Shown here piece by piece: positions 1 to 14,906 of a stretch of 64,000 nucleotides of DNA (position 1 is the stretch's first letter; each line of letters opens with the position of its first letter). A model generated the notes under the pieces. That model ran no database searches, was not told the origin of the DNA, and saw only the letters and a list, made by a program, of their open reading frames with translations. The stretch lies in contig CACZJZ010000015.1 of assembly GCA_902781655.1 (NCBI GenBank), positions 1 to 64,000 on the forward strand, read 5' to 3'. A program made the translations under genes and the position numbers. The stretch is from an uncultured Lachnospiraceae bacterium. GTDB lineage: Bacteria; Bacillota; Clostridia; Lachnospirales; Lachnospiraceae.

Positions 1-804
1 GTCTTCATGCTGTACTTCGCCACGTTTCAGATCAATCAGAACAAAGCATTTTAGAATACGGTGATAAAACACAAGATCAATTTTAAAAATTCTACCGCCG
101 ATATTTATGCGCTGTTGTCTGCCGACATACGTAAAACCTTTGCCAAGTTCAAGAAGGAACTGACTCAGGTTGTTTATCAGAGCTGTCTCCAGATCGCCTT
201 CCTTATAGACAGGTAATTCCGGAAGCCCAACAAATTCAAATATATACGGATCCTTCACAACATCTTCCGGCTTTTCGATAATCTGCCCCTTTTCTGCCAG
301 CATCATAACTTCATCTTTATTTTTACTGAGTGCCAGACGCTGAAAGAGCATACTGTTCATCTGACGTTTAAGTTCTCTGACGCCCCAGTTTTCCTGTTCG
401 CATTCATGCACATAGAAAGATCGTTCTTGTGGATCATCAATTTTGAGTAGCTCTATATAATGGCTCCAGCTTAATTTTGCAGACAGTGTCTGCAAAATTG
501 GAAAAGTAAGATATAACTTGCGCATCTTATTCACATTGCTCATGCCAAAGCCTCTTCCATATCTTTCGATCAGATCATGAGACAGCCGCTTTAAAGTTTC
601 TGAACCATATTCTGCTTTCTCATGGCCTGCCTGTTCATATTCAACGATATATCTGCCAATATTCCAGTTTGTTTCGACAATGGCCTGGTTGACCTGATTA
701 ACAGCTTTTTGTCTGCCGTTATTTAACGCTATCCCGATGTTCTGCAGTAAATCTTGATACTCAGCATTATTTGATACAAGTTGATTGGTGTTTTTGTCCG
801 CCAT
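1..804 (-). CDS. DUF1016/YhcG-family PD-(D/E)XK nuclease, C-terminus beyond window
   Basis: The reading frame is open from an ATG at 804 to the left edge, giving 268 residues without a stop. The N-terminal half matches the DUF1016 (YhcG) pattern: a helical region with an NWNIGRYIVEYEQ stretch and a RYGRGFGMSNVNKMRKLY stretch. It is followed by the start of a PD-(D/E)XK-type nuclease domain with IDLVFYHRILKCFVLIDLK, where the D and the later D/K supply the usual catalytic residues. Family members are often found beside restriction-modification genes and on mobile elements. The start overlaps nothing but lies 2 bp after the stop of the upstream gene, whose last codons carry the GGAG ribosome binding site, so the two are co-transcribed. 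The real C-terminus is outside the window. Confidence 0.85.
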   Translation of the reverse strand, partial: MADKNTNQLVSNNAEYQDLLQNIGIALNNGRQKAVNQVNQAIVETNWNIGRYIVEYEQAGHEKAEYGSETLKRLSHDLIERYGRGFGMSNVNKMRKLYLTFPILQTLSAKLSWSHYIELLKIDDPQERSFYVHECEQENWGVRELKRQMNSMLFQRLALSKNKDEVMMLAEKGQIIEKPEDVVKDPYIFEFVGLPELPVYKEGDLETALINNLSQFLLELGKGFTYVGRQQRINIGGRIFKIDLVFYHRILKCFVLIDLKRGEVQHED

Positions 805-2802: not shown

Positions 2803-4044
2803 TCAGTTTCTCGTCAGCACGCGCTGCATTTCCTCAAAGTCGTAATCGGCCTGCTGATATTCGCCCGCCCAGGGGGAATCGCCCGCCGTTTTCGGCGCAG
2901 CCGGCTGAAAATTTCTGCGGATGGCGGTCAGCATCCATCCAACCGGGTTCTCCACGGATTTTTTCGTGCGGTAAAGATCATAAGCGGTGCGTACCCGTTC
3001 TTTGTTCCAGTCGGCGGCCACGGCAAAATTCCGAAGATCCCGTGAGGTAAATTCGTTCCCGGTGAAGTCACGCAGCGCATCGAGAAAATCGAGCTGCTCA
3101 TCCTCGGTCAGCGCCTTCTTTTCCTGAGGAGCTGTTCCCATGCCGGTTTGGCTGCCATTGCCTGCGGCAGTTTGTCGGCTGTAGTCACCGGCGTTCATCA
3201 CAGTCACCGTGAAGTCGATGCTGTGCACCTTACCGCCGACGCCATGTTTCTCGGAGGACCAGCGGACGCGCAGATCTGAGATTTCATTGATCTCCTTGAG
3301 CGACTTTTCCAGAACCTTCCGACGGAACTCGGACCAGTTGTCGAACATGCGCTCCGGCGCGATCTCTACTGCCCGGTCGTAATCAGGATTGGCACTGTCC
3401 CGGAGGACACGCTTCACGGCGTCGAGTTCCGCATTGACGATGCCGAGTTCCAGCTTCAGCTCCGACAGCGGCATGCGGATGAGATAGGTGCTGCCGTTCT
3501 GATCGGGATCGCCCTTCTGATGGTAGCATTTGCTCTTGAGAAGCTCATACATCCGGAAGCTGTAGTTGTTCGTGAACTTCATCTGAATCGTCAGATTAAG
3601 CTTGGAAAAATTCGACTGCAGCTTGCCGATCACAGAGCGCATGGCACCATTATACTCGATGATGAATTTCCCGTTTTCCAGCCTGGCGCGGGTGACGACA
3701 GCGATATAGTCAAAGCGCTTGCTGTCAGGCGACGACATACCGATGGACTTGCCGGTCATGCTCTTGGCCACTGCATCCAGCTGCTGATAGAAGCTTCCGC
3801 GGTTGGCGTTGAGCGCCGCACGCAGCTCCGACACCGGGATCACGGACTGAATGGTTTCACGCTCGGAATTGCTGGTGCCATAGTCAAACTTATCTGCATT
3901 CGCCAGAGAATAGGCCATGATCTTATTCTCCAGCAGCGTCGATTTGTACTTTGACCCAATCAGGAAATTGCTCTTGGGATAGATATTGATTTCAGACGGA
4001 ATAAAGGGGACGACCCCGCCTCCGGATTCTTTCTTCTCAGACAT
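2803..4044 (-). CDS. repB: Rep_3 family replication initiator protein
   Basis: The product is a plasmid-type initiator of the Rep_3 (RepB/RepA winged-helix) family, which binds iterons and opens the origin. Seen in the sequence: an N-terminal winged-helix region with LLENKIMAYSLANADKF, SERETIQSVIPVSELRAAL and KSIGMSSPDSKRFDYIAVVTRA; then FSKLNLTIQMKFTNNYSFRMYELLKS, the typical start of the second domain; then EFRRKVLEKSLKEINEISDLRVRW. The C-terminus adds a DnaD-like helical tail (DEQLDFLDALRDFTG). The ORF can be opened further up to 4131, but the ATG at 4044 has an AGAGGTGG ribosome binding site, and the extra upstream part is made of iteron sequence. The start at 4044 (413 residues) is therefore preferred. 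The gene points away from the iteron array, the usual arrangement, and the iterons nearest its start probably also autoregulate it. Confidence 0.85.
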   Translation of the reverse strand: MSEKKESGGGVVPFIPSEINIYPKSNFLIGSKYKSTLLENKIMAYSLANADKFDYGTSNSERETIQSVIPVSELRAALNANRGSFYQQLDAVAKSMTGKSIGMSSPDSKRFDYIAVVTRARLENGKFIIEYNGAMRSVIGKLQSNFSKLNLTIQMKFTNNYSFRMYELLKSKCYHQKGDPDQNGSTYLIRMPLSELKLELGIVNAELDAVKRVLRDSANPDYDRAVEIAPERMFDNWSEFRRKVLEKSLKEINEISDLRVRWSSEKHGVGGKVHSIDFTVTVMNAGDYSRQTAAGNGSQTGMGTAPQEKKALTEDEQLDFLDALRDFTGNEFTSRDLRNFAVAADWNKERVRTAYDLYRTKKSVENPVGWMLTAIRRNFQPAAPKTAGDSPWAGEYQQADYDFEEMQRVLTRN

Positions 4045-4068
4045 ACCCCACCTCTTCGTGTATTGATA

Positions 4069-5056
4069 TTTCTGTCCGTTTTTGTAGTATCTGCGTCCGT
4101 CTACAAATTGGACAGGATTTAAAATTTGCATAGCCGATTATGCTACGAAACGGACAGAAAAGCAAGAGAAAATGCTACATTTTGGACAGAAAACGGGAAA
4201 AGAATGGTGTGTATCAAGTCGGAAAGTGAAAATGCTACATTTTTGGACAGAAGTTCATACTGGGATAGACATAAGCGGCACGCATCAGTTCCGCCAGGGT
4301 CATTTGGCCATGGCACAAATGACTAAAATGCGACTATTTATGCACGATAAGCAGCAAAAACAGCGCTGTGCTACAAAAATGGACAGATCTTAACCTTCTT
4401 ACGTACAGGAGTCGTGCAGGAAGCAGCCATGTAAGAAAAGCAGGTGCTACATAAATGGACAGAAGTTCGTTGCCGGACAACGATGGGTAGAAGCAATTCA
4501 ATGGGTGAGAAACCCAGAACAGACGTTTTTCAGCCTGAACAATGTCTCACGCTACAAAATCAGACAGAAGTAACACCTGAATTGTCCAGAAGTTGTACCA
4601 TTCATTAACACAAGGCCGGTCAGTACAGGAACACATGCTACAAAAACGGACAGGAAAGGTGCCTTTTGATGATGGAGGATCAGTCTTGCGGTGTAAAAAC
4701 TGTTCTCGTGAAGGGAATCATCCGCGCTGCAATGCGGAAAATCGACCTAGCCAGAGGAAAAATTCGCCCTGTGATGCAAGAGAATTGTCCTTTATAAGGG
4801 AGTGGAAAGGCCATATGAGAAAGGAAATCAGCTGCCAGACTGCCTGGAAACTACATTTTTAGACAGAAGTTACCGGAATTCCGGACTGTACGTGGAAAGA
4901 TTCTACAATAATGGACAGAATTAATCTATAAAACGGACATAAGTTGCGCGGTTCAGAGACAGTATCCAGGGTACAAATGCAGACAGAACTTTATCCGTGT
5001 ATGGACAGAAGCCGGCAGGATGCAGAACAACCGATGCTACAAATCTGGACAGGATG
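4069..5056. repeat. oriV: Iteron array, replication origin of the Rep_3 replicon
   Basis: A 22-bp motif with core CTACAAAAATGGACAGAAGT recurs at 4099, 4141, 4173, 4233, 4369, 4445, 4550, 4636, 4849, 4901, 4923, 4969 and 5035, all on the plus strand. One inverted copy lies at 4069-4090. The invariant parts are CTACA and GGACAG (sometimes AGACAG), with an A/T-rich spacer between. Weaker half-copies occur at about 4579 (TTGTCCAGAAGT) and 4991-5012. Spacings are irregular (22 to 213 bp). Such arrays next to a Rep_3 gene are binding sites for the initiator; most of the 1.1 kb between rep and the next gene is this array. Short ORFs that can be opened here run through the repeats and are not credible. 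Confidence 0.88.
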
Positions 5057-5155
5057 GAAAGCCGGAACATACAGATCTGCGCCATTTTCTCCTCTCTGAA
5101 AAGAAGAAAACAAATTTGCTGTTGAATCATAAACGACAACCAAATATTTCAGAAT

Positions 5156-6976
5156 CTACTTGCTATCGGAAATTGGCACGCGCAGAGTGACTTCTGTACC
5201 CGCGTGGTATTTGCTGTGTATTTGTATGCCATACTGATCGCCATATTGAAGCTTTATACGACAGTTGACATTGGAGAGACCAATATGTGTCTCTCCGTTA
5301 GCGAATTCCATGGAATGAATATCAGGGGAAGAAAGCTGATTCTGTATTGTGTTCAGTTGTTTTTCATTGATTCCTACGCCGTCGTCCAGGACCGTGATCA
5401 GAAGGTCTCCTCCCACTTCGGCTGCATCCAGAATAATTTTGCCATGGGGGCTTTGCGAGAATCCATGTGTCAATGCATTTTCTATGATGGGCTGCAGCAT
5501 AAAGCGCATCACGAGAATATTGCCATATTGGGCAGGAATGCGACTTTCATAATCAAATTTCCCGGCGAAACGATAATTCATGATAGTGATATAGCTTTGG
5601 ATATGCTTCTCCTCTTCGGATAACAAACAGTAGGTACCGCTGTCGCGAAAAACCGGCTTCAGAAAATCTCCCAGTGCGGTTGTACAGTCAGCAATATTGT
5701 TTTGATTATTGGCAAGCGCCATCCATTTGATGGTATTTAAGGTGTTGTATATAAAATGTGGATTAATCTGATATCGGAGAGATTCAATCTCATATTTCCT
5801 TTTCTGCTGTTCCAATTCATGCTGACTCTCGAACAGCGCCCGAATTTTTGCGGACATAGTGTTAAAGTGCTTTTCCAGAATTCCGATTTCATCGGAAGAG
5901 CGTTCCGGAATTTTCAGACCGAATTCACCGCAGCTTAGTTTTGAAACAGCCTGCGTCAATTGATTTAGTGGGGCAAGGGCTTTCGATACAAAATATTTTG
6001 CCAGGACAAGGGAAATGGAGCAGGAGATGACAAGCATTAAGATCGTAAGCCGCAGAATACCAGCCTGATCCGGTGAAAAATCTGAAGATATCTCATAAAC
6101 CAGCCAGCCAGGAAAATCGGATAAACGGTAGCAGCTTATCTGCGATCTGCCAGCATTGAATCTAATTAGTTTCTGACTGGCCGACGATTGCAGGGCAGCC
6201 TCGGTCAAAGAGGAAATATTGCTGTCCTCTTGAGAGCGAAACATGGCTTTGCCGTCTAAATCCATGAGCATGATGCTTTCATCATCATAACAGTTCATCA
6301 TGTCAAAGAGCGCATAAACATCTTCTTCATGGACATTAATAAGCAGAACTCCTGTATTTACATAGCGGGCAGCACTGATCAGATTTTCATAATTCTTTGG
6401 AGAGATGTACAATGTTGAAAATTGTTTACTGCTGTATCCGGAATGCCATACCAGCGAACGTTTGGCGGATACAGCCTGCCGGTATAGCGAAGAATCCAGT
6501 AGCCAGGCCAAGGTATTGGTATCCTTATTCATGTAGGAATTCTCGTTGGGACTGCATATCATTGACCAGCCGCCTTTATCGACATACACAACGGAAGTGA
6601 TCTCGGGGTAATCCAGCATTATTTGCTGAGACTGCTGAAAAAAGTATCTTGCCTGCATGAGCTTGTTTACTTCACTGCCCTTGAAGTAAACATTTGTTTC
6701 CTGTAAACGGGCATCGCCTGCTATGCTTCGGGATGCAAGATCTATTTTTTCTGAGAAGCGGCTCATATTAATGTCGCATTGATCGAATTGTGCATTGATG
6801 TAGTCTGTATGATTTTGCCGGATAATCTGATTGCTCTTTCTGTAGAAAAGAAACAGGGTGATACAGATGATCGCAGTGAACAGGAGAAAAAAGGAACTTA
6901 CAAGGCGGACAGAAAGATGGCTCCGCCAAGAAGATACAACGAGAGTGCAGATGTGATGAAATTTATTCCTTTTCAT
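5156..6976 (-). CDS. Sensor histidine kinase, YesM type
   Basis: A membrane histidine kinase of the YesM/LytS-like His_kinase family that phosphorylates the partner regulator encoded just upstream. Order: transmembrane segment near residues 25-45, extracellular sensor region of about 250 residues, second transmembrane segment near 300-320, HAMP linker, then the kinase core with YQINPHFIYNTLNTIKW (phospho-accepting His near residue 407), N-box PIIENALTHGF and G-box DDGVGI. The frame can start at 6988, but the ATG at 6976 has a GGAG ribosome binding site at good distance, so it is preferred. It overlaps the end of the regulator gene by 14 bp, so translation is coupled. The pair lies divergent to an oligosaccharide ABC operon, its likely target. 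Confidence 0.9.
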   Translation of the reverse strand: MKRNKFHHICTLVVSSWRSHLSVRLVSSFFLLFTAIICITLFLFYRKSNQIIRQNHTDYINAQFDQCDINMSRFSEKIDLASRSIAGDARLQETNVYFKGSEVNKLMQARYFFQQSQQIMLDYPEITSVVYVDKGGWSMICSPNENSYMNKDTNTLAWLLDSSLYRQAVSAKRSLVWHSGYSSKQFSTLYISPKNYENLISAARYVNTGVLLINVHEEDVYALFDMMNCYDDESIMLMDLDGKAMFRSQEDSNISSLTEAALQSSASQKLIRFNAGRSQISCYRLSDFPGWLVYEISSDFSPDQAGILRLTILMLVISCSISLVLAKYFVSKALAPLNQLTQAVSKLSCGEFGLKIPERSSDEIGILEKHFNTMSAKIRALFESQHELEQQKRKYEIESLRYQINPHFIYNTLNTIKWMALANNQNNIADCTTALGDFLKPVFRDSGTYCLLSEEEKHIQSYITIMNYRFAGKFDYESRIPAQYGNILVMRFMLQPIIENALTHGFSQSPHGKIILDAAEVGGDLLITVLDDGVGINEKQLNTIQNQLSSPDIHSMEFANGETHIGLSNVNCRIKLQYGDQYGIQIHSKYHAGTEVTLRVPISDSK

Positions 6977-8606
6977 GGGCCTCTCCATTTTTTTCTGACG
7001 ACAGCAATCCTTTGAAATTGATCTGAGAATAATGTTTGGGACTCATTCCTGTATAATTTTTAAATATACGGCTGAAGTAGCTTACATCGGTGAATCCGAG
7101 CGCATCGGAAATTTCTGAGATATTCATATCAGATAAAGTAAGCAGTTCCTTCGCCTTTTCAATTTTGAGAGAATTCAGGTAATCTACGATTCCCATCCCC
7201 ATGCTTTTTCGAAACAAGCTTCCCAGGTAATTTGGCGATAAGCCGATTGACTTTGCCAGGTCAGAAATCGCTACTTTTTCTGAATAATGTTGTTTCAAAT
7301 ATGTTGTAACGGCATCAATTCTTCTGTTTTCGACCCGGCGCTCCCGGAAATTACGGTTGATCTCAGAAAGCTTGTCGCAGAGAGCCTGAATATCCTCGAT
7401 ATAGTATTGATGCTCTCTAAGGCTTGTTAATGTGCTGATCATAGAATCCGCTTCGTTTTGTTCTTTATTCTCTGAATCCTTTCCAAATAGTGGCCAGTAT
7501 ATCATGTGAAGAATAATTTCTTCGGAGTTGTTGCGGCTTGTTTCAAAAGACATCAGCAGCTTCTCCCGTCCCGATGTCAGTATCTTCATGTATTCCGCTG
7601 GAATATCGGTCAGCTTTTCCCAAACACTGGCGATCTTGTTTTCCGCCCGGATTTTATCCCTTTTCGGAACAGGAGCATTAAACCAGCAGATCATTTCATC
7701 GCTCATGTAGTATAGCCGCTCGCGGGAAATCTTCGCCTCCTCATATAATTGTGGCAATGTTTTCCAGCCGTTGCCGCAGGAACTCACGCCAAAAGTGACA
7801 TGAAAATTCATATAGTTCCGGATGATTGTCGCAATATGAGATAGGATTTTTTCGGCAGCCCGCATCGGAGAGGAAACCGTGCTGTCAAAACCAAAGATAA
7901 TCCAGTAATTATTTTTTTCCCCATGTAGCATTTCGCCATTGTGGTACGTTTCCAGTAACTGATTGATCAGCGTTGAAACCGTGTTCCACAACATATTATT
8001 CTTGCTTTTGACTTTGTCATCAGACAATATCGAATCATTTTGCGCAAAGCTCATGATGCAGAGATAGAGCTGGTCGGACGACAGCCGGAGGTTAAGTGCC
8101 TTTGCGAGGGCGTCAAACTCCTTTGCTTCGATGTTCCTGCCAATAATCAGACGTTCGAGCAATTGTTCCTTTTTCTCATTTGGCGCAGTGTGGGATACTT
8201 GATCGTCGCTAGGGGCTGACTTCTTTTCTATTGTACATTCATCTACAGCCTTTTTGATTACCTGAGCAAGCGTCTGTTTATCGAGATCAAGCTTCAGTAG
8301 ATAGTCTGAGATCTGATAATGCATTGCCTGATGCAAAAGATCGAATTCATCATATGCGGTCAGAATGATGATTTTTGTTTGGGAATCCTTTTCGCGGATT
8401 TTAGAGATCAACCCGAGTCCGTCCATCCCCGGTATTTTAATATCGGTGATGATAATATCTGGGTTCTTTTCCAGATATAGGGAATAAGCACTGTTCCCGT
8501 CGCTGGCAGTTCCAACGATTTCACAACCATATTCTTCCCATTTCAGAAGATTGCAGATACCAACCAATACGATCATTTCATCTTCAACAATCAGTACTCG
8601 AATCAT
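6963..8606 (-). CDS. Response regulator with AraC-type output domain, YesN type
   Basis: A two-component regulator of 547 residues. The receiver domain occupies about residues 1-120, with DE at 9-10, the phospho-accepting Asp 55 in ITDIKIPGMDG, and a T/K pair further on (ILTAYDEFD, LLKLD). The middle is the long variable linker usual for YesN. The C-terminal 100 residues are an AraC/XylS DNA-binding domain: TYLKQHYSEKVAISDLAKSI, then LGSLFRKSMGMGIVDYLNSL, then ISEISDALGFTDVSYFSRIF and the closing TGMSPKHY. It precedes and overlaps the kinase gene. Its own promoter and that of the divergent transporter share the 420-bp region 8607-9029. The ligand class is inferred from the transporter family to be an oligosaccharide. 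Confidence 0.9.
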   Translation of the reverse strand: MIRVLIVEDEMIVLVGICNLLKWEEYGCEIVGTASDGNSAYSLYLEKNPDIIITDIKIPGMDGLGLISKIREKDSQTKIIILTAYDEFDLLHQAMHYQISDYLLKLDLDKQTLAQVIKKAVDECTIEKKSAPSDDQVSHTAPNEKKEQLLERLIIGRNIEAKEFDALAKALNLRLSSDQLYLCIMSFAQNDSILSDDKVKSKNNMLWNTVSTLINQLLETYHNGEMLHGEKNNYWIIFGFDSTVSSPMRAAEKILSHIATIIRNYMNFHVTFGVSSCGNGWKTLPQLYEEAKISRERLYYMSDEMICWFNAPVPKRDKIRAENKIASVWEKLTDIPAEYMKILTSGREKLLMSFETSRNNSEEIILHMIYWPLFGKDSENKEQNEADSMISTLTSLREHQYYIEDIQALCDKLSEINRNFRERRVENRRIDAVTTYLKQHYSEKVAISDLAKSIGLSPNYLGSLFRKSMGMGIVDYLNSLKIEKAKELLTLSDMNISEISDALGFTDVSYFSRIFKNYTGMSPKHYSQINFKGLLSSEKNGEAHEKE

Positions 8607-9029
8607 AAATATCTCCGATTTTTCGGGCTAAGTATCAGGTTCATTCATGAAAGTGGTGCAGATCCCTCGTACGCATACGTCATCTATGGCCTTTCGCAAT
8701 GCGACAAAGGAAATATACCACCATATCATGGGATAATATTGCTGTATTTTGGAAAAATATTCCGACACGAGTTAGATGATATTTCTATTCAATACGGTTC
8801 AAATCTGATTTGTCTGCGGGAAAATGCCCTATATAGCGGGGGGGTATGCCCAAAAATGTGTTGAATAGTTCTGAAATGATTGAAAAGTACAAATGAGGAT
8901 TGGGCATCATCATTATTAAATTCAAATAATCGGAACTAAATTCATTAAATTTATAGAAAATATATAATAAGATGATGACAGAAAAAATAAATGTGTGCAA
9001 ATTGCACTAATTCAACGGGGAGAACTTCA
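8607..9029 (+). promoter_or_regulatory. Divergent regulatory region with direct repeats before a TATAAT box
   Basis: This gap separates the YesN-type gene from the ABC operon and holds no gene. A TATAAT at 8963-8968 has no good -35 element. Instead the octamer TAAATTCA occurs at 8917-8924 and 8937-8944, 20 bp apart on the same face, the second reaching the -35 position. This is the geometry of an AraC-type activator with two tandem sites. It is a prediction from sequence only. Confidence 0.4.
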
Positions 9030-9974
9030 ATGCAGGAATATTCTGTGATGGATGAGGGGATAGTTCCATCAAAATGGAATGCCAGAACAAGAAGGGGATT
9101 GAAATATCTTTTGATCGCACTGCCATTCATGGTATTGGCGGCAGCATTCTATTATGTGCCGTTGTTCAGTTGGGCTTATGCTTTCTTCAAATATCAGCTG
9201 GGGCATCCGATCACCGACATGCCATTTGTCGGACTGGCAAATTTCAGAAAACTGCTTGCTCAGTGGCAGGAGGTTGCCCGCGTGCTGCGCAATACGCTTG
9301 CCATGAGCTTCCTGAATATTCTCTGCACGCCACTCCCTATGATCTTTGCAATTATGCTGAACGAGGTGCATCACGCCAGATATAAGAAATTCATTCAGAC
9401 AGCGACCACGCTTCCGAATTTCATCAGCTGGTTTATTGTTTATGAGCTTGCCAGCGCGATCTTTTCATCAGGTGGTTTAATCGCCGTCATCCAGGGGAGA
9501 TTTGGCAATGTCCAGACGGGAACGGATATTCTTGGAAACAATGACATTGTGTGGATTTTTCAATTGCTTCTGGGCATCTGGAAAGGGCTGGGCTGGCAGG
9601 CAATTATTTATCTGGCGGCTATTTCCGGCATAGATCAGGAACTGTATGATGCAGCTAGGGTGGACGGGGCTGATAAAATGCGGACGATCATGCATGTCAC
9701 GGTTCCGGGGCTGATGCCAACCTTCATGGTACTTCTACTGCTTCAGGTGAGCAACCTGCTGAACAATGGTCTTGATCAGTATTTTGTATTCTATAATCCA
9801 TCCGTCGCGGACAAGATAGAGGTGCTCGATTATTACGTTTATAAAATTGGAATTCTTGTCAATGATTATTCCTATTCCATTGTGCTTGGAATGTTCAAGA
9901 CGTTAATCAGCGTGCTGCTGCTATTTAGTGTGAATGGCATTTCAAAGAAGGTGCGCGGGGAATCTATTGTTTAA
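9030..9974 (+). CDS. Carbohydrate ABC transporter permease, LplB type
   Basis: Inner-membrane subunit of a CUT1-type importer. About six hydrophobic segments are visible, beginning YLLIALPFMVLAAAFYYVPLFSW. The ATPase-contact EAA loop is present as YDAARVDGADKMRTIMHVTVPGLMP. The N-terminal MVLAAAFYYVPLFSWAYAF and the FVGLANFRKLL stretch are typical of the LplB family, which usually serves oligosaccharides from plant or host glycans. The frame opens at 8991, but the ATG at 9030 has a strong GGGGAGA ribosome binding site. It is first in an operon with a second permease and a binding protein. No ATPase is encoded here; as is usual for this class, a shared MsmX-like ATPase elsewhere is expected. 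Confidence 0.9.
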   Translation: MQEYSVMDEGIVPSKWNARTRRGLKYLLIALPFMVLAAAFYYVPLFSWAYAFFKYQLGHPITDMPFVGLANFRKLLAQWQEVARVLRNTLAMSFLNILCTPLPMIFAIMLNEVHHARYKKFIQTATTLPNFISWFIVYELASAIFSSGGLIAVIQGRFGNVQTGTDILGNNDIVWIFQLLLGIWKGLGWQAIIYLAAISGIDQELYDAARVDGADKMRTIMHVTVPGLMPTFMVLLLLQVSNLLNNGLDQYFVFYNPSVADKIEVLDYYVYKIGILVNDYSYSIVLGMFKTLISVLLLFSVNGISKKVRGESIV

Positions 9975-10026
9975 TTTTTGCAAATTCGTGAACCATTAAC
10001 GCCAGCATTTCTTGGGAGAGACTTCC

Positions 10027-10956
10027 ATGACTTACCGTAAAAAAACAGAAAGTAAAAAGGGACGGGCAAATCATATCAGGATTTCCCCGCAGGAGAAAAT
10101 ATTACATGCAGTAAATATCGCTTTACTTACGTCAATCATGTTTGTATGCGTCTATCCATTCTGGTATGTCATCATCGGATCATTTTCGTCCGCAGATGCA
10201 ATATCTGCTGGAGTTTTTCTCTGGCCGGTGAATTTTACGGTCCATACATATCAGGAGATATTCAAAAAAGGCGACATCGGGCATGCGTTTCTTATCTCTG
10301 TGTGCCGCGTTGTTTCCGGCACGGTATTATGTCTGTTCTGCTGTACCTTTTTCGCCTATTTGATGACAAGGCGCGAGATGCTGGGAAGAAAATTCGTATA
10401 TCGGTTTATTATTGCAACCATGTATGTCAATGCCGGATTGATCCCATGGTATCTGACCATGAAAATGTACGGACTTCGAAATAATTTTCTGGTCTATATT
10501 CTTCCGGGAGCGATGAATGCCTATTTCATTATCCTGATCAAAACATTTATCGAGCAGCTTCCCCCTTCCCTTGAGGAGTCAGCAGCGCTTGACGGAGCAG
10601 GTTTTTTTCAAGTTTACCGAAGTATCATTCTTCCTCTGTCAAAGCCGGTCATTGCAACATGCGCAGTGTATATTTCCGTCGGACAGTGGAATGCGTGGCA
10701 GGACAACTATTTTCTGGTGACCGATACGAGGCTGCAGACAGTTCAACTGATCCTTTACAACTACTTACATGAAGCGGAGCAGCTCGCAAGCAGCATGAGA
10801 AGCGGTATGGTGACGGAAAATGCGGCAAACATGATCAGCCCTGCGGGGGTGCGAATGGCAATTACCGTGATCACAGTGTTTCCAATTCTCTGCGTGTATC
10901 CGTCGCTTCAGAAATATTTTGCAAAAGGAATCATGATGGGTGCAGTCAAAGGTTAA
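10027..10956 (+). CDS. Carbohydrate ABC transporter permease, YtcP type
   Basis: Second permease of the importer, 309 residues from the ATG at 10027, which has a GGGAGAG ribosome binding site (an upstream TTG at 10012 is less likely). It shows the MalG-like order: VYPFWYVIIGSFSSADAI, several membrane spans, the EAA loop EESAALDGAGFFQVYRSIILPLSKP, and the closing FPILCVYPSLQKYFAKGIMMGAVKG, which is nearly diagnostic of this family. It lies 52 bp after the first permease and 102 bp before the binding-protein start. It should pair with the LplB-type subunit and a generic MsmX-type ATPase. Confidence 0.9.
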   Translation: MTYRKKTESKKGRANHIRISPQEKILHAVNIALLTSIMFVCVYPFWYVIIGSFSSADAISAGVFLWPVNFTVHTYQEIFKKGDIGHAFLISVCRVVSGTVLCLFCCTFFAYLMTRREMLGRKFVYRFIIATMYVNAGLIPWYLTMKMYGLRNNFLVYILPGAMNAYFIILIKTFIEQLPPSLEESAALDGAGFFQVYRSIILPLSKPVIATCAVYISVGQWNAWQDNYFLVTDTRLQTVQLILYNYLHEAEQLASSMRSGMVTENAANMISPAGVRMAITVITVFPILCVYPSLQKYFAKGIMMGAVKG

Positions 10957-11058
10957 GATCAGGATCGGAAATTTTGTCTAATGGTTACAACAGGCAGCGA
11001 AAGTGGGGGCCCTCATGCAGTCTGCCTTGGAACACAATATTTTTCAGGGAGGTATTTC

Positions 11059-12813
11059 ATGAAGAAAAAAACCATTTCTACCGTGCTATCTGCTTTCCTC
11101 TGTGGAACGCTGCTGATAGGATGCGGCAGTGGAAATGCAGCGGGTACGGTCCAGAGCACGGATGGCTCTTCCGCGGCGGGAATTGCGGAATCTGTTGAGA
11201 CACAGGCATCAGCTTCTGAGACAGCAGAAAGTTCATCGTCTGGGGAATTAGACAAAAGTCCGATTACTCTGACCCTTGGTATTTCACAGGCGGAAGACGG
11301 CGAATGGGACTGTGCGGTTGCGGAGCAGATCAAAGAAGCTACGGGGATTACACTCAATATCGTAAAGGTGGATCACGACAAGATGAAGGTTCTTGCTGCG
11401 GGCGGGGATCTGCCGGATCTCTTCTGGCTTCCGGAACTGAGCATGATGGATGTTTCAAGCATCATATCTTCCGGACAATTACTGCCACTCGACGATCTTC
11501 TGGAAGAATATGGACAGGATATCTTAAAAAATGAACCTACAGCAATTCAGTATTCCAAGAAAATAGTCGGTGACGGGACGACGTACATTCTGCCCTGTGC
11601 GGTGAAGAAGGCAGAACCAGATAATCCGCTTCAAAACGGATTCGTGGGATTCTTTACACGCTATGATTACTATAAGGCGATCGGGTCTCCGGAGATGAAC
11701 GGGGAGGATGAATATCTGGACGTGCTCAGACAGATCCAGGATTACGCGCAGAGTCAAAGGACGGATGGGAAGAAGGTTTATGCGCTCTCTGCCTGGACGG
11801 ACTGGGGGGCATGGCCGTACATCATACCGTATCCCTTCTCGCACGGATATACCAATCTGAATGCGAATTTCCTTGGAAATTGTGAGACAGGTGAAGTGGA
11901 GAATGAATTTCTGGAGGAGGACGGTGTCTTCTGGAAGGGGATGAAGTTCTTTAACAAAGCTTACAGAATGGGACTGTTCGACCCTGAAGGGCTGACGCAG
12001 AAATGGCAGCAATATTGTGACAAAATAGAAAATGGACTTGTGCTCACCAATTATCTGACACGAAACAGTCCGAATACCGTGCTTCTTCCGGGGGCATTTG
12101 AGATTCTTCCTGATATTTATGACTATGATCTGGCCTGTGGATATCAGGTGAACGATTCCAGGGCTATTTCCACGAATTGCAAGTACCCGGAGAGGGCGAT
12201 GCAGCTTCTGAATTATCTGGAAACGGACGAAGGCGCGAGACTGATATTTAATGGCGTTCAGGGGGAGGATTGGGACTATGTCGACGGAGTTCCTCAGCCA
12301 ATCGGCGAGCGTTTAAAATATCTGAATAGCGGGGACAGTTATGAATATGACAGTAAGCGCGGGATCAATACGCTGGAATATTTCTGCTCAGGCGTACAGC
12401 AGCCGGAGGATGGGTATCCGGTAAAACTTACCAATACCAAGAACTATAAAATGGAGCATGCAACCCCGGAGCAGCAGGAGTTCGCGGCGGACTACGGAGA
12501 TTTTAAATATCCGGGACAGGTCTATGACCAGTGGGTGAAGGATGGAATAGGTAAGACCTGTTCAGTAGTTCCAGTCAGTCTTCAGATTATTGGACCCTGT
12601 TCTGAGGAGGCACAGCAAATTCAGTCCAACGGGGAGCAGTACTTCAATTCGAACCTCTCCAAGGTGGTTCTCGCGGAAAGTGACGAGCAGTTTGAAAAGG
12701 CGAAGCAGGACATCATCTCGGACCTTAAGGCGATGGGATACGAAAATGCTGCAAATGAATTCATAGAGAATGCAAAGGTTGCGAAAGAGGAGGCAGCTTC
12801 CTTTGAAAATTAA
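11059..12813 (+). CDS. Extracellular sugar-binding lipoprotein of the ABC importer
   Basis: Solute-binding protein of about 584 residues. The ATG at 11059 follows GGGAGG and begins a lipoprotein signal: KKKTISTVLSAFLCGTLLIGCG, with the lipobox cysteine in LIGCG. A Ser/Ala/Glu-rich linker follows, then the binding-protein fold (ITLTLGISQAEDGEWD, LAAGGDLPDLFWLP, TNYLTRNSPNT) of the large LplA-like class. The C-terminal YFNSNLSKVVLAESDEQFEKAKQDIISDLKAMG is typical of that class. The frame runs upstream to 10981, but that part lacks a signal sequence and a ribosome binding site. It is third in the operon and determines specificity, which cannot be read from the sequence. Confidence 0.88.
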   Translation: MKKKTISTVLSAFLCGTLLIGCGSGNAAGTVQSTDGSSAAGIAESVETQASASETAESSSSGELDKSPITLTLGISQAEDGEWDCAVAEQIKEATGITLNIVKVDHDKMKVLAAGGDLPDLFWLPELSMMDVSSIISSGQLLPLDDLLEEYGQDILKNEPTAIQYSKKIVGDGTTYILPCAVKKAEPDNPLQNGFVGFFTRYDYYKAIGSPEMNGEDEYLDVLRQIQDYAQSQRTDGKKVYALSAWTDWGAWPYIIPYPFSHGYTNLNANFLGNCETGEVENEFLEEDGVFWKGMKFFNKAYRMGLFDPEGLTQKWQQYCDKIENGLVLTNYLTRNSPNTVLLPGAFEILPDIYDYDLACGYQVNDSRAISTNCKYPERAMQLLNYLETDEGARLIFNGVQGEDWDYVDGVPQPIGERLKYLNSGDSYEYDSKRGINTLEYFCSGVQQPEDGYPVKLTNTKNYKMEHATPEQQEFAADYGDFKYPGQVYDQWVKDGIGKTCSVVPVSLQIIGPCSEEAQQIQSNGEQYFNSNLSKVVLAESDEQFEKAKQDIISDLKAMGYENAANEFIENAKVAKEEAASFEN

Positions 12814-12828
12814 ATCGTAAGAGGCTTC

Positions 12829-12860
12829 CTCTCCCGCCGCGGTTTATCGCGGCGGGAGAG
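12829..12860 (+). other. Perfect 13-bp hairpin in the intergenic region, mRNA processing or attenuation element
   Basis: CTCTCCCGCCGCG and its exact complement flank a GTTTAT loop, 16 bp after the stop of the binding-protein gene. No T-run follows, so it is not a standard terminator. It could stabilise the upstream mRNA and lower expression of the downstream gene. The rest of 12861-13038 shows nothing recognisable. Confidence 0.5.
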
Positions 12861-13038
12861 TCCCGATCCAGAGGAAAGACCGAAGTGGGATCTCACACGG
12901 ATGCCGCGAAGAGCGTGGAATGGGGCATTAAATATTGCGGAAGAAGAGCAGAGTCTGGTGGGTCGAAAAATCCGCCAGATTTTGTATGGGAATCTTTTCA
13001 GGTAACAGGTGTGAAAAGGGAGTACGGAGGATAGACAG

Positions 13039-14478
13039 ATGGCGAATCTGAATAGCACAGAGTTTTTTAACAAGGTATACGGATGCTGGGTGGGGAAGAA
13101 TATCGGAGGAACTTTGGGAACACCCTTTGAGGGGAAAACGGATATATTGGATATCAGAGATTTTCATTCTCCTTCAGGGAAACCACTGGCCAACGATGAT
13201 TTGGATCTCCAACTGGTCTGGCTGAAAGCGCTGGAAGAGTATGGGCCAAATCGGATTTCGGAAAAGGTTCTGGGAGAATACTGGCTGGATTACATCCCGG
13301 CATGGTGGAACGAGTATGGGATTGGCAAGAGCAATATGCAGGCAGGCCTTTTGCCGCCTGTATCCGGAGATTACAAGAATCCATGGAGGGATTCCAACGG
13401 AGCATGGATCCGATCAGAAATCTGGGCTTCTATAACTCCCGGCGATCCGGAAGCAGCTGCGGAATTCGCATGGTATGACGCCTGTGTGGATCATGGGACA
13501 GGGGAAGGTACCTATGCGGAGTACTTTACATCTTCGATTGAGAGCGCTGCATATGTGATTTCTGATCGGGAGGAGCTGTTAAAAATAGGATTATCTTATA
13601 TTCCGGAGAACTGTCGGGTGGCGCAGTCGGTCCGGGTGGCGATGGATGCCTATAAGGACGGGGCTGACTGGAAAACAGCCCGGCAGAGAGTCGTTGAGGA
13701 TGCCCAGGATCTGGGATGGTTTCAGGCACCGGCGAATGTGGCTTTTTTTGTCATCGGATGGCTTTACGGGGAGGGGGATTTTAAAAAATCTCTGCTTATC
13801 GCGGTAAATTGTGGCGATGATACAGATTGTACAGGAGCTACCCTGGGCTCCATTCTGGGGATCCTTGGGGGTGTGGACAGTATACCCGGTGACTGGAGAC
13901 AGTTCATCGGAGATGATATTATCTCGGTCGCGCTGAACAGAGCCAGCGGCAGTTTTCCGACATCCTGCAGAGAACTGACAGAACGTGTTGTCAGAATGGC
14001 TAAAATCACGCTTGCGATGAAAAATTCTGAAATCACGATCAGCGGTGATGAGACAGACCTTTCCAGCATAAAGGCGCAGGATCTTGTAGCAACAGAAAAC
14101 TACTGGGAGAAAATGAGTACACATGACGGGTCTGTTTTCTATGATTTCGTACATACCAGAGCATATGTGAAATATATGACCGGCGCCGGAATCAGACAGG
14201 ACGGAGAAGCGGAACTGAAAATTACATTGGAAAATAAGATGCCGGGACAAAGGCATTATAGTATCAGATATATTCTTCCTGATGGTCTGACATTGGAAGA
14301 AGGTCCGAAAAGTATTGTGATCCAGACAGATACAAGATATACCCGGCGATTTGGCAGATTCACAGTGAAACTGAGAGCAAATGAATACCTTGCGCCGCAG
14401 AATCGGATTATCATTGAGATCTCATCACTGGATCGTCCCACCGATATCATATTACCGATCCTTCTGCTTGCGGAATGA
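13039..14478 (+). CDS. ADP-ribosylglycohydrolase-family protein with extra C-terminal domain
   Basis: The first 300 residues match the ADP-ribosylglycohydrolase (DraG/ARH) fold. KVYGCWVGKNIGGTLGTPFEG is the usual N-terminus. NDDLDLQ near residue 55 supplies metal ligands in place of the common DDT. NCGDDTDCTGATLGSILGILGG near residue 258 is the second metal site. From about residue 330 a beta-rich segment (AELKITLENKMPGQRHYSIRYILP) forms a separate domain that classical DraG enzymes (about 300 residues) lack. The ATG at 13039 has GGAGG upstream. Located behind a sugar importer, it probably acts on an imported glycoside rather than on ADP-ribosylated protein; such homologues are frequent in sugar loci. 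This is inference; the substrate is unknown. Confidence 0.82.
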   Translation: MANLNSTEFFNKVYGCWVGKNIGGTLGTPFEGKTDILDIRDFHSPSGKPLANDDLDLQLVWLKALEEYGPNRISEKVLGEYWLDYIPAWWNEYGIGKSNMQAGLLPPVSGDYKNPWRDSNGAWIRSEIWASITPGDPEAAAEFAWYDACVDHGTGEGTYAEYFTSSIESAAYVISDREELLKIGLSYIPENCRVAQSVRVAMDAYKDGADWKTARQRVVEDAQDLGWFQAPANVAFFVIGWLYGEGDFKKSLLIAVNCGDDTDCTGATLGSILGILGGVDSIPGDWRQFIGDDIISVALNRASGSFPTSCRELTERVVRMAKITLAMKNSEITISGDETDLSSIKAQDLVATENYWEKMSTHDGSVFYDFVHTRAYVKYMTGAGIRQDGEAELKITLENKMPGQRHYSIRYILPDGLTLEEGPKSIVIQTDTRYTRRFGRFTVKLRANEYLAPQNRIIIEISSLDRPTDIILPILLLAE

Positions 14479-14824
14479 AGTTTCTGGTTGGCGTGGGTTA
14501 TGAAAATTGAAAATATGTGAATGGACGAGAATAAACGTTAAGCAATGATAAACGACAACAAAACGGCGATAAACGAAAACATGGCGAAAAGAATATCACA
14601 GAGAAGCCGCAGGAGAATGGCGAAATGATCTGGATGCGGCATTTTCATTTTTCTGAGTTTATGGAATATTATGCTCAGGTCAACAAGAAAGCTGACAGAT
14701 CGGCAGAAAAGTCAACCAAATGGGAGGATGTGTTTTTGAAGATTTTTCACAAACTTATCAGGAAATCGACGAATTGAGTTGCTATTTATGTTCAAAATAG
14801 TATATGCTGAATTTATCAAAGACT
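14479..14824 (+). promoter_or_regulatory. Non-coding leader with promoter of the second sugar importer
   Basis: No gene is seen in 14479-14906. A plausible sigma-A promoter is TTGAGT (14774-14779), 18 bp, TAGTAT (14798-14803). That would start transcription just upstream of the operator cluster. Further upstream, GATAAACGA recurs twice near 14548-14575, of unknown meaning. Confidence 0.45.
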
Positions 14825-14850
14825 TGGAAACGTTACCGAAAACGTTTCCA
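14825..14850. promoter_or_regulatory. Two adjoining LacI/CcpA-type operators
   Basis: TGGAAACGTTACC is followed at once by GAAAACGTTTCCA. Both are centred on CG, as in LacI-family and cre sites, and the outer GGAAACGTT arms form an inverted pair. They lie just downstream of the predicted start of transcription, a position that favours roadblock repression, for example catabolite repression by CcpA. Confidence 0.6.
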
Positions 14851-14864
14851 AACATATTGATTTT

Positions 14865-14883
14865 AGTGCACAGTCTGTGCACT
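14865..14883. promoter_or_regulatory. Perfect 19-bp palindrome, candidate operator
   Basis: AGTGCACAGTCTGTGCACT reads identically on both strands around a central T and ends 8 bp before the GGGAGG ribosome binding site of the binding-protein gene. It could bind a dimeric repressor. As RNA it could form a hairpin with almost no loop, so a DNA site is more likely. Confidence 0.55.
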
Positions 14884-14906
14884 CATTTCATGGGAGGTAG
14901 GTCACT

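Follow-up and report, generated by a model that had tools for sequence, protein, structure and literature searches.

Replication of a bacterial chromosome is expected to begin at an oriC bound by DnaA, in many cases next to dnaA. The stretch of DNA analyzed here raises the question of what a plasmid-type initiator gene and its iterons are doing among genes of chromosomal character, and whether they fire. The window comprises bases 1-64,000 of contig C15 (79,369 bases) in genome G000, the window's host, which is assembled as 2.76 Mb in 53 contigs. Its rep gene is the sole Rep3_N match in that genome; no tRNA or known RNA family was found in the window. A first-pass annotation of the sequence suggested a Lachnospiraceae-like host, as borne out by the named relatives, which belong to the Lachnospiraceae and include strain NK3A20. 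Among the genomes compared below, G028 appears to be Lachnospiraceae bacterium NK3A20, G020 the metagenome-assembled genome UW_TS_LCO4_1, G037 RUG554 and G035 RUG433.

The initiator gene, rep, lies on the minus strand (2803..4044). The product of its open reading frame (2803-4131) matches Pfam Rep3_N (7e-18) and Rep3_C (2e-10), both above the cut-offs, and a PDB profile search returns RepE and pi. The same two proteins are matched by fold, with a predicted model of moderate quality (mean pLDDT 68.8). The Rep_3 assignment made at first pass is therefore secure, the search against Rep_3 families proposed there having been run. Translation likely begins at an internal ATG at 4044, giving 413 amino acids, as the ribosome-site-like GAGGTGGGG stands just ahead of this codon and homologues begin nearby. 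A start at this codon would put both the inverted iteron and direct copy 1 in the rep leader or promoter. The protein continues for about 130 residues past WH2 in a C-terminal extension that is partly common to homologues; as a guess, it might contact a helicase loader. A prophage source was considered and rejected: a search of 50,697 phage records gives the protein a single match, at 22% identity and E 4e-21, and no phage gene occurs among the scanned neighbors.

In a regex scan, the motif CTACA-N4/5-(G/A)GACAG occurs 13 times in direct orientation between 4101 and 5053 and once inverted, two degenerate copies included. The inverted copy (4071..4087, minus strand) is in the rep leader and may be part of an autoregulatory operator. 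The direct copies, all on the plus strand, open with iterons 1 (4101..4116, CTACA-N4-GGACAG), 2 (4143..4158) and 3 (4175..4190). Some copies continue into AAGTTC, as does iteron 4 (4235..4251, CTACA-N5-GGACAG-AAGTTC), which is followed by iterons 5 (4371..4387), 6 (4447..4463) and 8 (4638..4654). Iterons 7 (4552..4568) and 9 (4851..4867) carry an AGACAG half-site. The array ends with iterons 10 (4903..4919), 11 (4926..4941, degenerate), 12 (4971..4987, a GTACA variant) and 13 (5037..5053). This loose pattern has four further matches elsewhere in the 64 kb. A stricter one matches 13 times within 4060-5060 (12 direct, one inverted) and nowhere else on the 79,369-base contig; the 86-kb dnaA contig has a single match, and none of 300 dinucleotide shuffles yields more than one. 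Regex scan, shuffles and Pfam thus agree with the initial description of 13 direct and one inverted copies facing a Rep_3 gene. Just past the array, the A+T profile marks a candidate strand-opening element (5088..5148, no strand assigned), with 74% A+T in 5100-5149; it is partly retained in G037, though it is not the most A+T-rich stretch there. No DnaA box with one mismatch or fewer occurs at the iterons (4000-5200). The second half of the iteron reads GGACAG in G000 and G037 and GTCCGG in G020 and G035 (loci L017 and L020); flanks and length are comparable, which gives the impression of an inverted or swapped half-site.

This arrangement resembles the mini-F (RepE) and R6K (pi) iteron plasmids in its WH1-WH2 initiator, upstream direct iterons and inverted copy near the rep promoter. 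P1, pPS10 and RK2 are further plasmids of the Rep_3 iteron type. Textbook iteron arrays are tight, whereas here some 10-20 iterons are spread irregularly over about 1 kb, the initiator carries the extension of about 130 residues after WH2, partition genes are missing, and the surroundings are chromosome-like. Relatives of the window's Rep (26-38% identity) are found on the Butyrivibrio and Roseburia replicons pNP243, p_831b, pCY360 and pCY186. The nearest plasmid Rep is that of pNP243, a 243-kb plasmid of Butyrivibrio fibrisolvens (38% identity). Like the window, p_831b has an irregular array upstream of rep. Both pNP243 and p_831b are separate circles with parA near rep, in contrast to the parA-free locus in the window.

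To place the locus within its family, we searched 396 Lachnospiraceae genomes with a profile (E 1e-15) and obtained 33 matches, in 28 genomes and 21 of 245 genera. The 31 loci examined comprise 22 of these matches, six more loci from the window's genus and three plasmids; the family matches left out are those in G432, G392, G404, G304, G278, G085 (two), G405 (two), G245 and G063. Upstream repeat counts exceed all eight Markov shuffles at 26 of the 28 loci with enough upstream sequence (exceptions G282 and G213), although the counts are soft at some A+T-rich loci because the best word there is of low complexity. The spacing in the window is truly irregular, as first noted, yet a repeat-rich region of this kind is the rule upstream of Lachnospiraceae Rep_3 genes and cannot be called unusual. 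Pooled over 22 loci, not all of them independent (G400, G020b, pNP243, pCY360, G213, G282, G168, G151 and G287 were left out), iteron spacings follow a period of about 10.6 bp (mean cosine 0.48 against 0.17 at the 99% level of the null), which is consistent with sites on one face of the helix; the window alone does not reach significance (p 0.075). A family-wide strand-opening motif was sought and is not claimed, because the reverse-strand control was nearly as frequent: the forward strand beat all 20 shuffles at 18 of 29 loci and the reverse strand at 15 of 29 (G400, G370 and loci with less than 600 bases upstream were left out).

Partition genes are distributed patchily in this family. A parA gene is present in the flank read at 13 of the 31 loci, two plasmids out of three among them (for pCY360, the flank on a single side was read); at the remaining 18 loci, a few of them with short flanks, none was seen. 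A tree of 33 Reps, which left out G035, puts the window's Rep in a clade of five rows (G000, G037, G020, G028 and G333) with 100/100 support, and no parA occurs in the flanks read for this clade. The well-supported branches force at least five gains or losses of the parA label, so that loss of parA, or capture of such modules by chromosomes, occurred repeatedly.

The module is under selection between the two closest genomes, G000 and G037, judging from their sequences. Their rep genes differ with dN 0.016 and dS 0.319 (dN/dS 0.050); more distant pairs (G020-G028, G000-G020) give dN/dS values of 0.26-0.28 at dS above 1. Across 234 iteron columns, identity is 96.6% and G037 lacks none; across 764 spacer columns, identity is 65.8% and G037 lacks 44, stretches present only in G037 being uncounted. 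The block adjoining the array (5.2-14.9 kb) differs in G037, while rep, the iterons and the genes from 14.9 kb onward are common to both. In the window, this block (5156-14900) holds a two-component regulator, a sugar ABC transporter and an ADP-ribosylglycohydrolase-type gene; a PfkB kinase and a 722-aa gene occupy its place in G037. At the other side of rep, a YhcG/DUF1016 nuclease gene (1-804, minus strand) is cut by the contig end. In G037 too, no more than 0.7 kb separates rep from the contig end, which may mean that a repeat or variable site adjoins rep on the left.

The first-pass annotation proposed a chromid or megaplasmid, or an integrated replicon. An integrated replicon fits best, and a chromid or megaplasmid is possible without being the best reading. 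The chromosome is the likeliest place for C15, on the grounds of its ptsI gene, the blocks it has in common with G041, and its lack of parA; the contig is not joined to C11, the 86-kb contig that carries both dnaA and the sole ParB_N match of G000. C15 carries ptsH and ptsI, the latter being the only full-length copy found in G000, and ptsI sits on a contig other than that of rep in G020, G028 and G035. G041, a relative in which Rep has no match, repeats blocks of C15, chiefly those of 61-79 kb, in partly rearranged form on a contig of 171 kb. Two ParA-family genes lie on this G041 contig, and one of them neighbors a ParB_N gene (7.8-9.6 kb). The skew of the contig has a single sign throughout, so forks would run toward the ParA/ParB_N end, which is not origin-like. 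A Wadjet JetA gene and a Schlafen/AlbA_2 gene occur within 9 kb of a ParA-family gene there (C6:128,000-137,300), which suggests an island at that site. The checks proposed at first pass for parAB and circularity gave partial answers: C15 has no AAA_31 or ParB_N match, the two types searched, and its ends do not overlap. Of the four AAA_31 matches in G000, the strong one is a Soj-type gene near ParB on the dnaA contig and three weaker ones are on C9 and C45; no plasmid-type parA is apparent in the genome. The absence of any ParA-family match from G037 says little, because not even Soj was found there.

Is the module active in this host? Exact DnaA boxes precede dnaA in G000, and the skew flips there. 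On C15, the skew is -0.08 over the first 4 kb and then positive for about 70 kb, and the genes to the right of rep show a rightward strand bias over 74 kb (fourfold sites: plus genes +0.26, minus genes -0.22). This is also the pattern that an active origin at rep would give. The suggested skew analysis around 4.5 kb gives a sign change near rep, on a left flank of only 2.8 kb with two open reading frames counted in the strand-bias analysis. Since oriC at dnaA looks intact and the iterons have no DnaA boxes, the window's module is probably auxiliary or dormant in G000.

Homologous loci within the genus indicate that presence of the module does not imply activity. Of 62 genomes, seven have a Rep match, and each of the seven belongs to the 26 high-quality genomes. 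G020 has rep and dnaA on the same contig, 70 kb apart and not separated by any N-run; within the 400 kb of G020 read, the sign of the skew switches next to dnaA and is unchanged at rep. Two more genomes, G028 and G035, share rep neighbors with G020 and likewise have no skew change at rep; in all three genomes the module looks passive. The first-pass annotation had named, as evidence against its proposal, a chromosomal rep gene with dnaA at another place and the skew unchanged; this is the situation in G020 and, by shared neighbors, probably in G028 and G035. Some of the same neighbors occur about 25 kb from dnaA in G031, without rep at that place. The G035 gene (C171:5,197-6,338, L020) is split in two frames, either a decayed copy or an assembly error. 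G020 has a second, distant Rep_3 gene (C2:929,513-930,583, L018) at the extreme end of a contig of 931 kb; the repeats upstream of it are of another type. In G041, there is no DnaA box in the 1.5 kb before dnaA on C13, and about 7 kb separates dnaA from the next shared gene.

A different state is seen in another genus, where two closely related genomes suggest that such a locus has taken over the chromosome. G232 is a single contig of 3,373,066 bases with dnaA at base 1 and the Rep_3 gene at 3,244,236-3,245,465, about 127 kb away. To the left of 3,218 kb, its plain skew is close to -0.19; it is mixed over 3,218-3,236 kb and about -0.2 from there up to rep, and between rep and dnaA it is near zero to mildly positive. 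In the 239 kb analyzed, a one-break fit is best at 3,246,001, which is at the iterons, and a two-break fit is best at 3,218 and 3,287 kb. The picture sharpens at fourfold-degenerate sites, which place the flip between 3,244 and 3,246.5 kb. At these sites, minus-strand genes have a coding-strand skew of +0.39 (n=38) far left and +0.36 (n=13) near left of the iterons, then -0.14 (n=27) right of them, -0.09 (n=27) in the next zone to the right and -0.18 (n=6) on the right of dnaA. For genes on the plus strand, the same five zones give the opposite signs: -0.19, -0.16, +0.31, +0.18 and +0.27. There is no strand-bias flip at dnaA in G232, the genome in which fourfold sites were read there. G400, a separate assembly whose DnaA is 98% identical to that of G232, behaves in the same way at rep, with minus genes at +0.43 on the left (n=33) and -0.14 on the right (n=23) and a single break at 55 kb, at the iterons.

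Comparison with sister species helps to explain this flip. Rep is present in five of the eight genomes of the genus of G232, and the Reps of G457 and G459 are 83% and 77% identical to that of G232. The right flanks of both (tRNA-Lys, a 218-aa gene that we take to be trmB, and the next genes) are colinear and co-oriented with G232 apart from insertions. The left flank of G459 also matches; that of G457, and both flanks of the Rep gene in G455, do not match the G232 stretch compared. In G457 and G459, the skew is negative on both sides of rep, except in one G457 bin. Six minus-strand orthologues right of the iterons have a summed fourfold skew of -0.155 in G232 versus +0.175 in G457 (p 1.6e-8). 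Among eight right-side orthologues compared between these genomes, five flip sign, one goes to zero and two do not flip; left-side orthologues (one in G457, two in G459) show no significant difference. An inversion at the iterons was rejected as the cause, given the colinear right flanks of G457 and G459 and left flank of G459. Gene orientation was rejected as well: for about 40 kb right of the iterons genes are mostly on the minus strand, as they are on the left, and fourfold sites still flip. With both explanations set aside, the direction of replication most likely changed in place.

The initiation sites themselves differ in the same direction. Beside the iterons, G232 has three exact DnaA boxes in 57 bp (3,246,206-3,246,262) and G400 has two exact boxes and near-matches. 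G457, G459 and G455 have no DnaA box at the iterons in about 1.2 kb, even with one mismatch. The 600 bp before dnaA contain no DnaA box in G232 and G400, again even with one mismatch, and the alignment indicates that roughly 85-95 bases are missing in both. In the same 600 bp, G456 has two exact boxes, G458 and G459 have one exact box each and near-matches, and G457 has two near-matches only. This comparison covers six of the eight genomes, as dnaA was not found in G455 and gave a weak partial match in G460. G456 and G458, which keep oriC boxes, are without a Rep match. Among the stretches of G232 examined, parS sites lie beside dnaA (3,363 kb). The simplest reading of these data, drawn from the sequences of two closely related genomes, is that in G232 and G400 the Rep_3-iteron locus took over as chromosomal origin and oriC lost its boxes.

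In G333, which belongs to the same Rep clade as the window, the skew shows a full flip at rep, as read over the first 100 kb of a contig of 156 kb, and dnaA keeps oriC boxes; in G402, oriC boxes are likewise kept and the skew also flips at rep. Since oriC boxes are retained, these loci may be chromids or second origins. Skew breaks are displaced or ambiguous in G168, G164 and G031 C43. Extra DnaA-like matches (frames of 170-723 aa) occur at G333 C14:122,941-124,511, on the contig of its Rep_3 locus, and at G434 C43:88,578-101,615; the proper dnaA is elsewhere in each.

Taking the window and its relatives together, the interpretation that we favor, with some reservation, is that of a complete Rep_3-iteron module of the megaplasmid or chromid type, lacking partition genes, most likely chromosomal and maintained by selection, which would be auxiliary or mostly silent here and the main origin in G232 and G400. 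Both its chromosomal position in G000 and any firing there are presumed from context. It is possible, though rather unlikely, that C15 instead belongs to a chromid or megaplasmid of more than 79 kb whose active origin is this locus. The sign change near rep followed by about 70 kb of positive skew would be expected of such a replicon, the nearest plasmid Rep does come from a 243-kb Butyrivibrio plasmid, and both the full flip in G333 beside retained oriC boxes and the two ParA-family genes on the G041 contig are compatible with it. Carbohydrate genes are known from chromids of Butyrivibrio measuring 92 and 186 kb (PMC5716241). However, a parA gene, present at 13 of 31 loci, is apparent in the AAA_31 search neither on C15 nor, as a plasmid type, in G000. 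The contig ends do not overlap, ptsH and ptsI are on C15 (ptsI being on a contig without rep in G020, G028 and G035), and the G020 homologue is on the dnaA contig. We also consider it unlikely that the module fires as an additional chromosomal origin in the host alongside oriC, an explanation that overlaps with the favored one. The strong rightward strand bias on C15 would be accounted for, and there is a demonstrated precedent in fused Vibrio chromosomes (PMC6284228). Against this, the iterons have no DnaA boxes, the homologous loci in G020 and G028 have no skew change, and the left flank, at 2.8 kb, is too short for a true switch to be visible.

Two further explanations do without replication from this locus. 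Iterons are incompatibility determinants, and Rep and iterons could serve as a chromosomal incompatibility device that replicates nothing now and handcuffs or titrates incoming related megaplasmids. Such a role would explain why both rep and iterons are constrained and why some relatives have neither parA nor a skew change, and related Rep_3 loci with parA do occur in the same genus (G031). We nevertheless judge it distinctly improbable: exclusion would be narrow because iteron sequence varies between species, titration needs no initiator gene, and G232 and G400 suggest that such loci can act as origins. A functionless relic of an integrated plasmid would agree with the occurrence of Rep in only seven of 62 genomes and with the split copy in G035. 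This is the least credible of the explanations, at a very low probability, because rep and iterons are constrained between G000 and G037, with dN/dS at 0.05 and near-perfect iterons amid diverged spacers.

If the favored, largely auxiliary module does fire, its mechanism may follow that of known iteron plasmids. By analogy with RepE, pi and TrfA, Rep monomers would bind the iterons, including presumably those of the window, and open an A+T-rich stretch beyond the array. Rep would then help to load the replicative helicase, and may repress its own gene via the inverted iteron. In G232 and G400, the same kind of module, with DnaA boxes alongside, would have become the main chromosomal origin as oriC was lost.

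A plasmid origin can drive a chromosome, as in integrative suppression. Natural and laboratory cases have been described, though in other forms. In Vibrio cholerae NSCV1 and NSCV2, fused chromosomes contain oriC and a plasmid-type ori2, which is active in one strain and silent in the other (PMC6284228). These strains resemble the present case in having a plasmid-type origin inside a single chromosome; they result from whole-chromosome fusion, whereas here there is a rep-iteron module only and oriC boxes were lost in G232 and G400. In Synechococcus elongatus, deletion of dnaA shifted the origin to an integrated plasmid (PMC7198777). That shift arose in laboratory mutants without dnaA, in contrast to G232 and G400, which are natural and keep dnaA. 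BhuII, known from the literature, is grouped here with the Butyrivibrio and Roseburia megaplasmids and chromids; chromid replication modes are treated in PMC7858055. Among open-access titles and the beginnings of abstracts, with subscription papers and preprints largely outside the search, no Rep_3-iteron locus was reported as the natural origin of a main chromosome in Lachnospiraceae. As far as this literature extends, a plasmid-type origin driving a chromosome is already known, and its natural replacement of oriC, with loss of the latter, between sister species would be new.

More broadly, it seems somewhat more probable than the opposite that Rep_3-iteron modules are standing spare origins of Lachnospiraceae chromosomes. 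By this account, they replaced oriC in at least one lineage, that of G232 and G400, in which oriC boxes would have been deleted and DnaA boxes gained at the iterons, with dnaA and parS 117-127 kb away in G232; the window's module may be an unfired or part-time spare. Plasmid origins are otherwise known to drive chromosomes in laboratory mutants and rare fused chromosomes. If sister species do differ in having oriC or a plasmid-type chromosomal origin, an origin switch could be studied step by step, and how chromosomes gain or change origins would be directly testable in any members that can be grown. The window, for its part, shows that selection can preserve such a module despite an intact oriC, which asks for a function.
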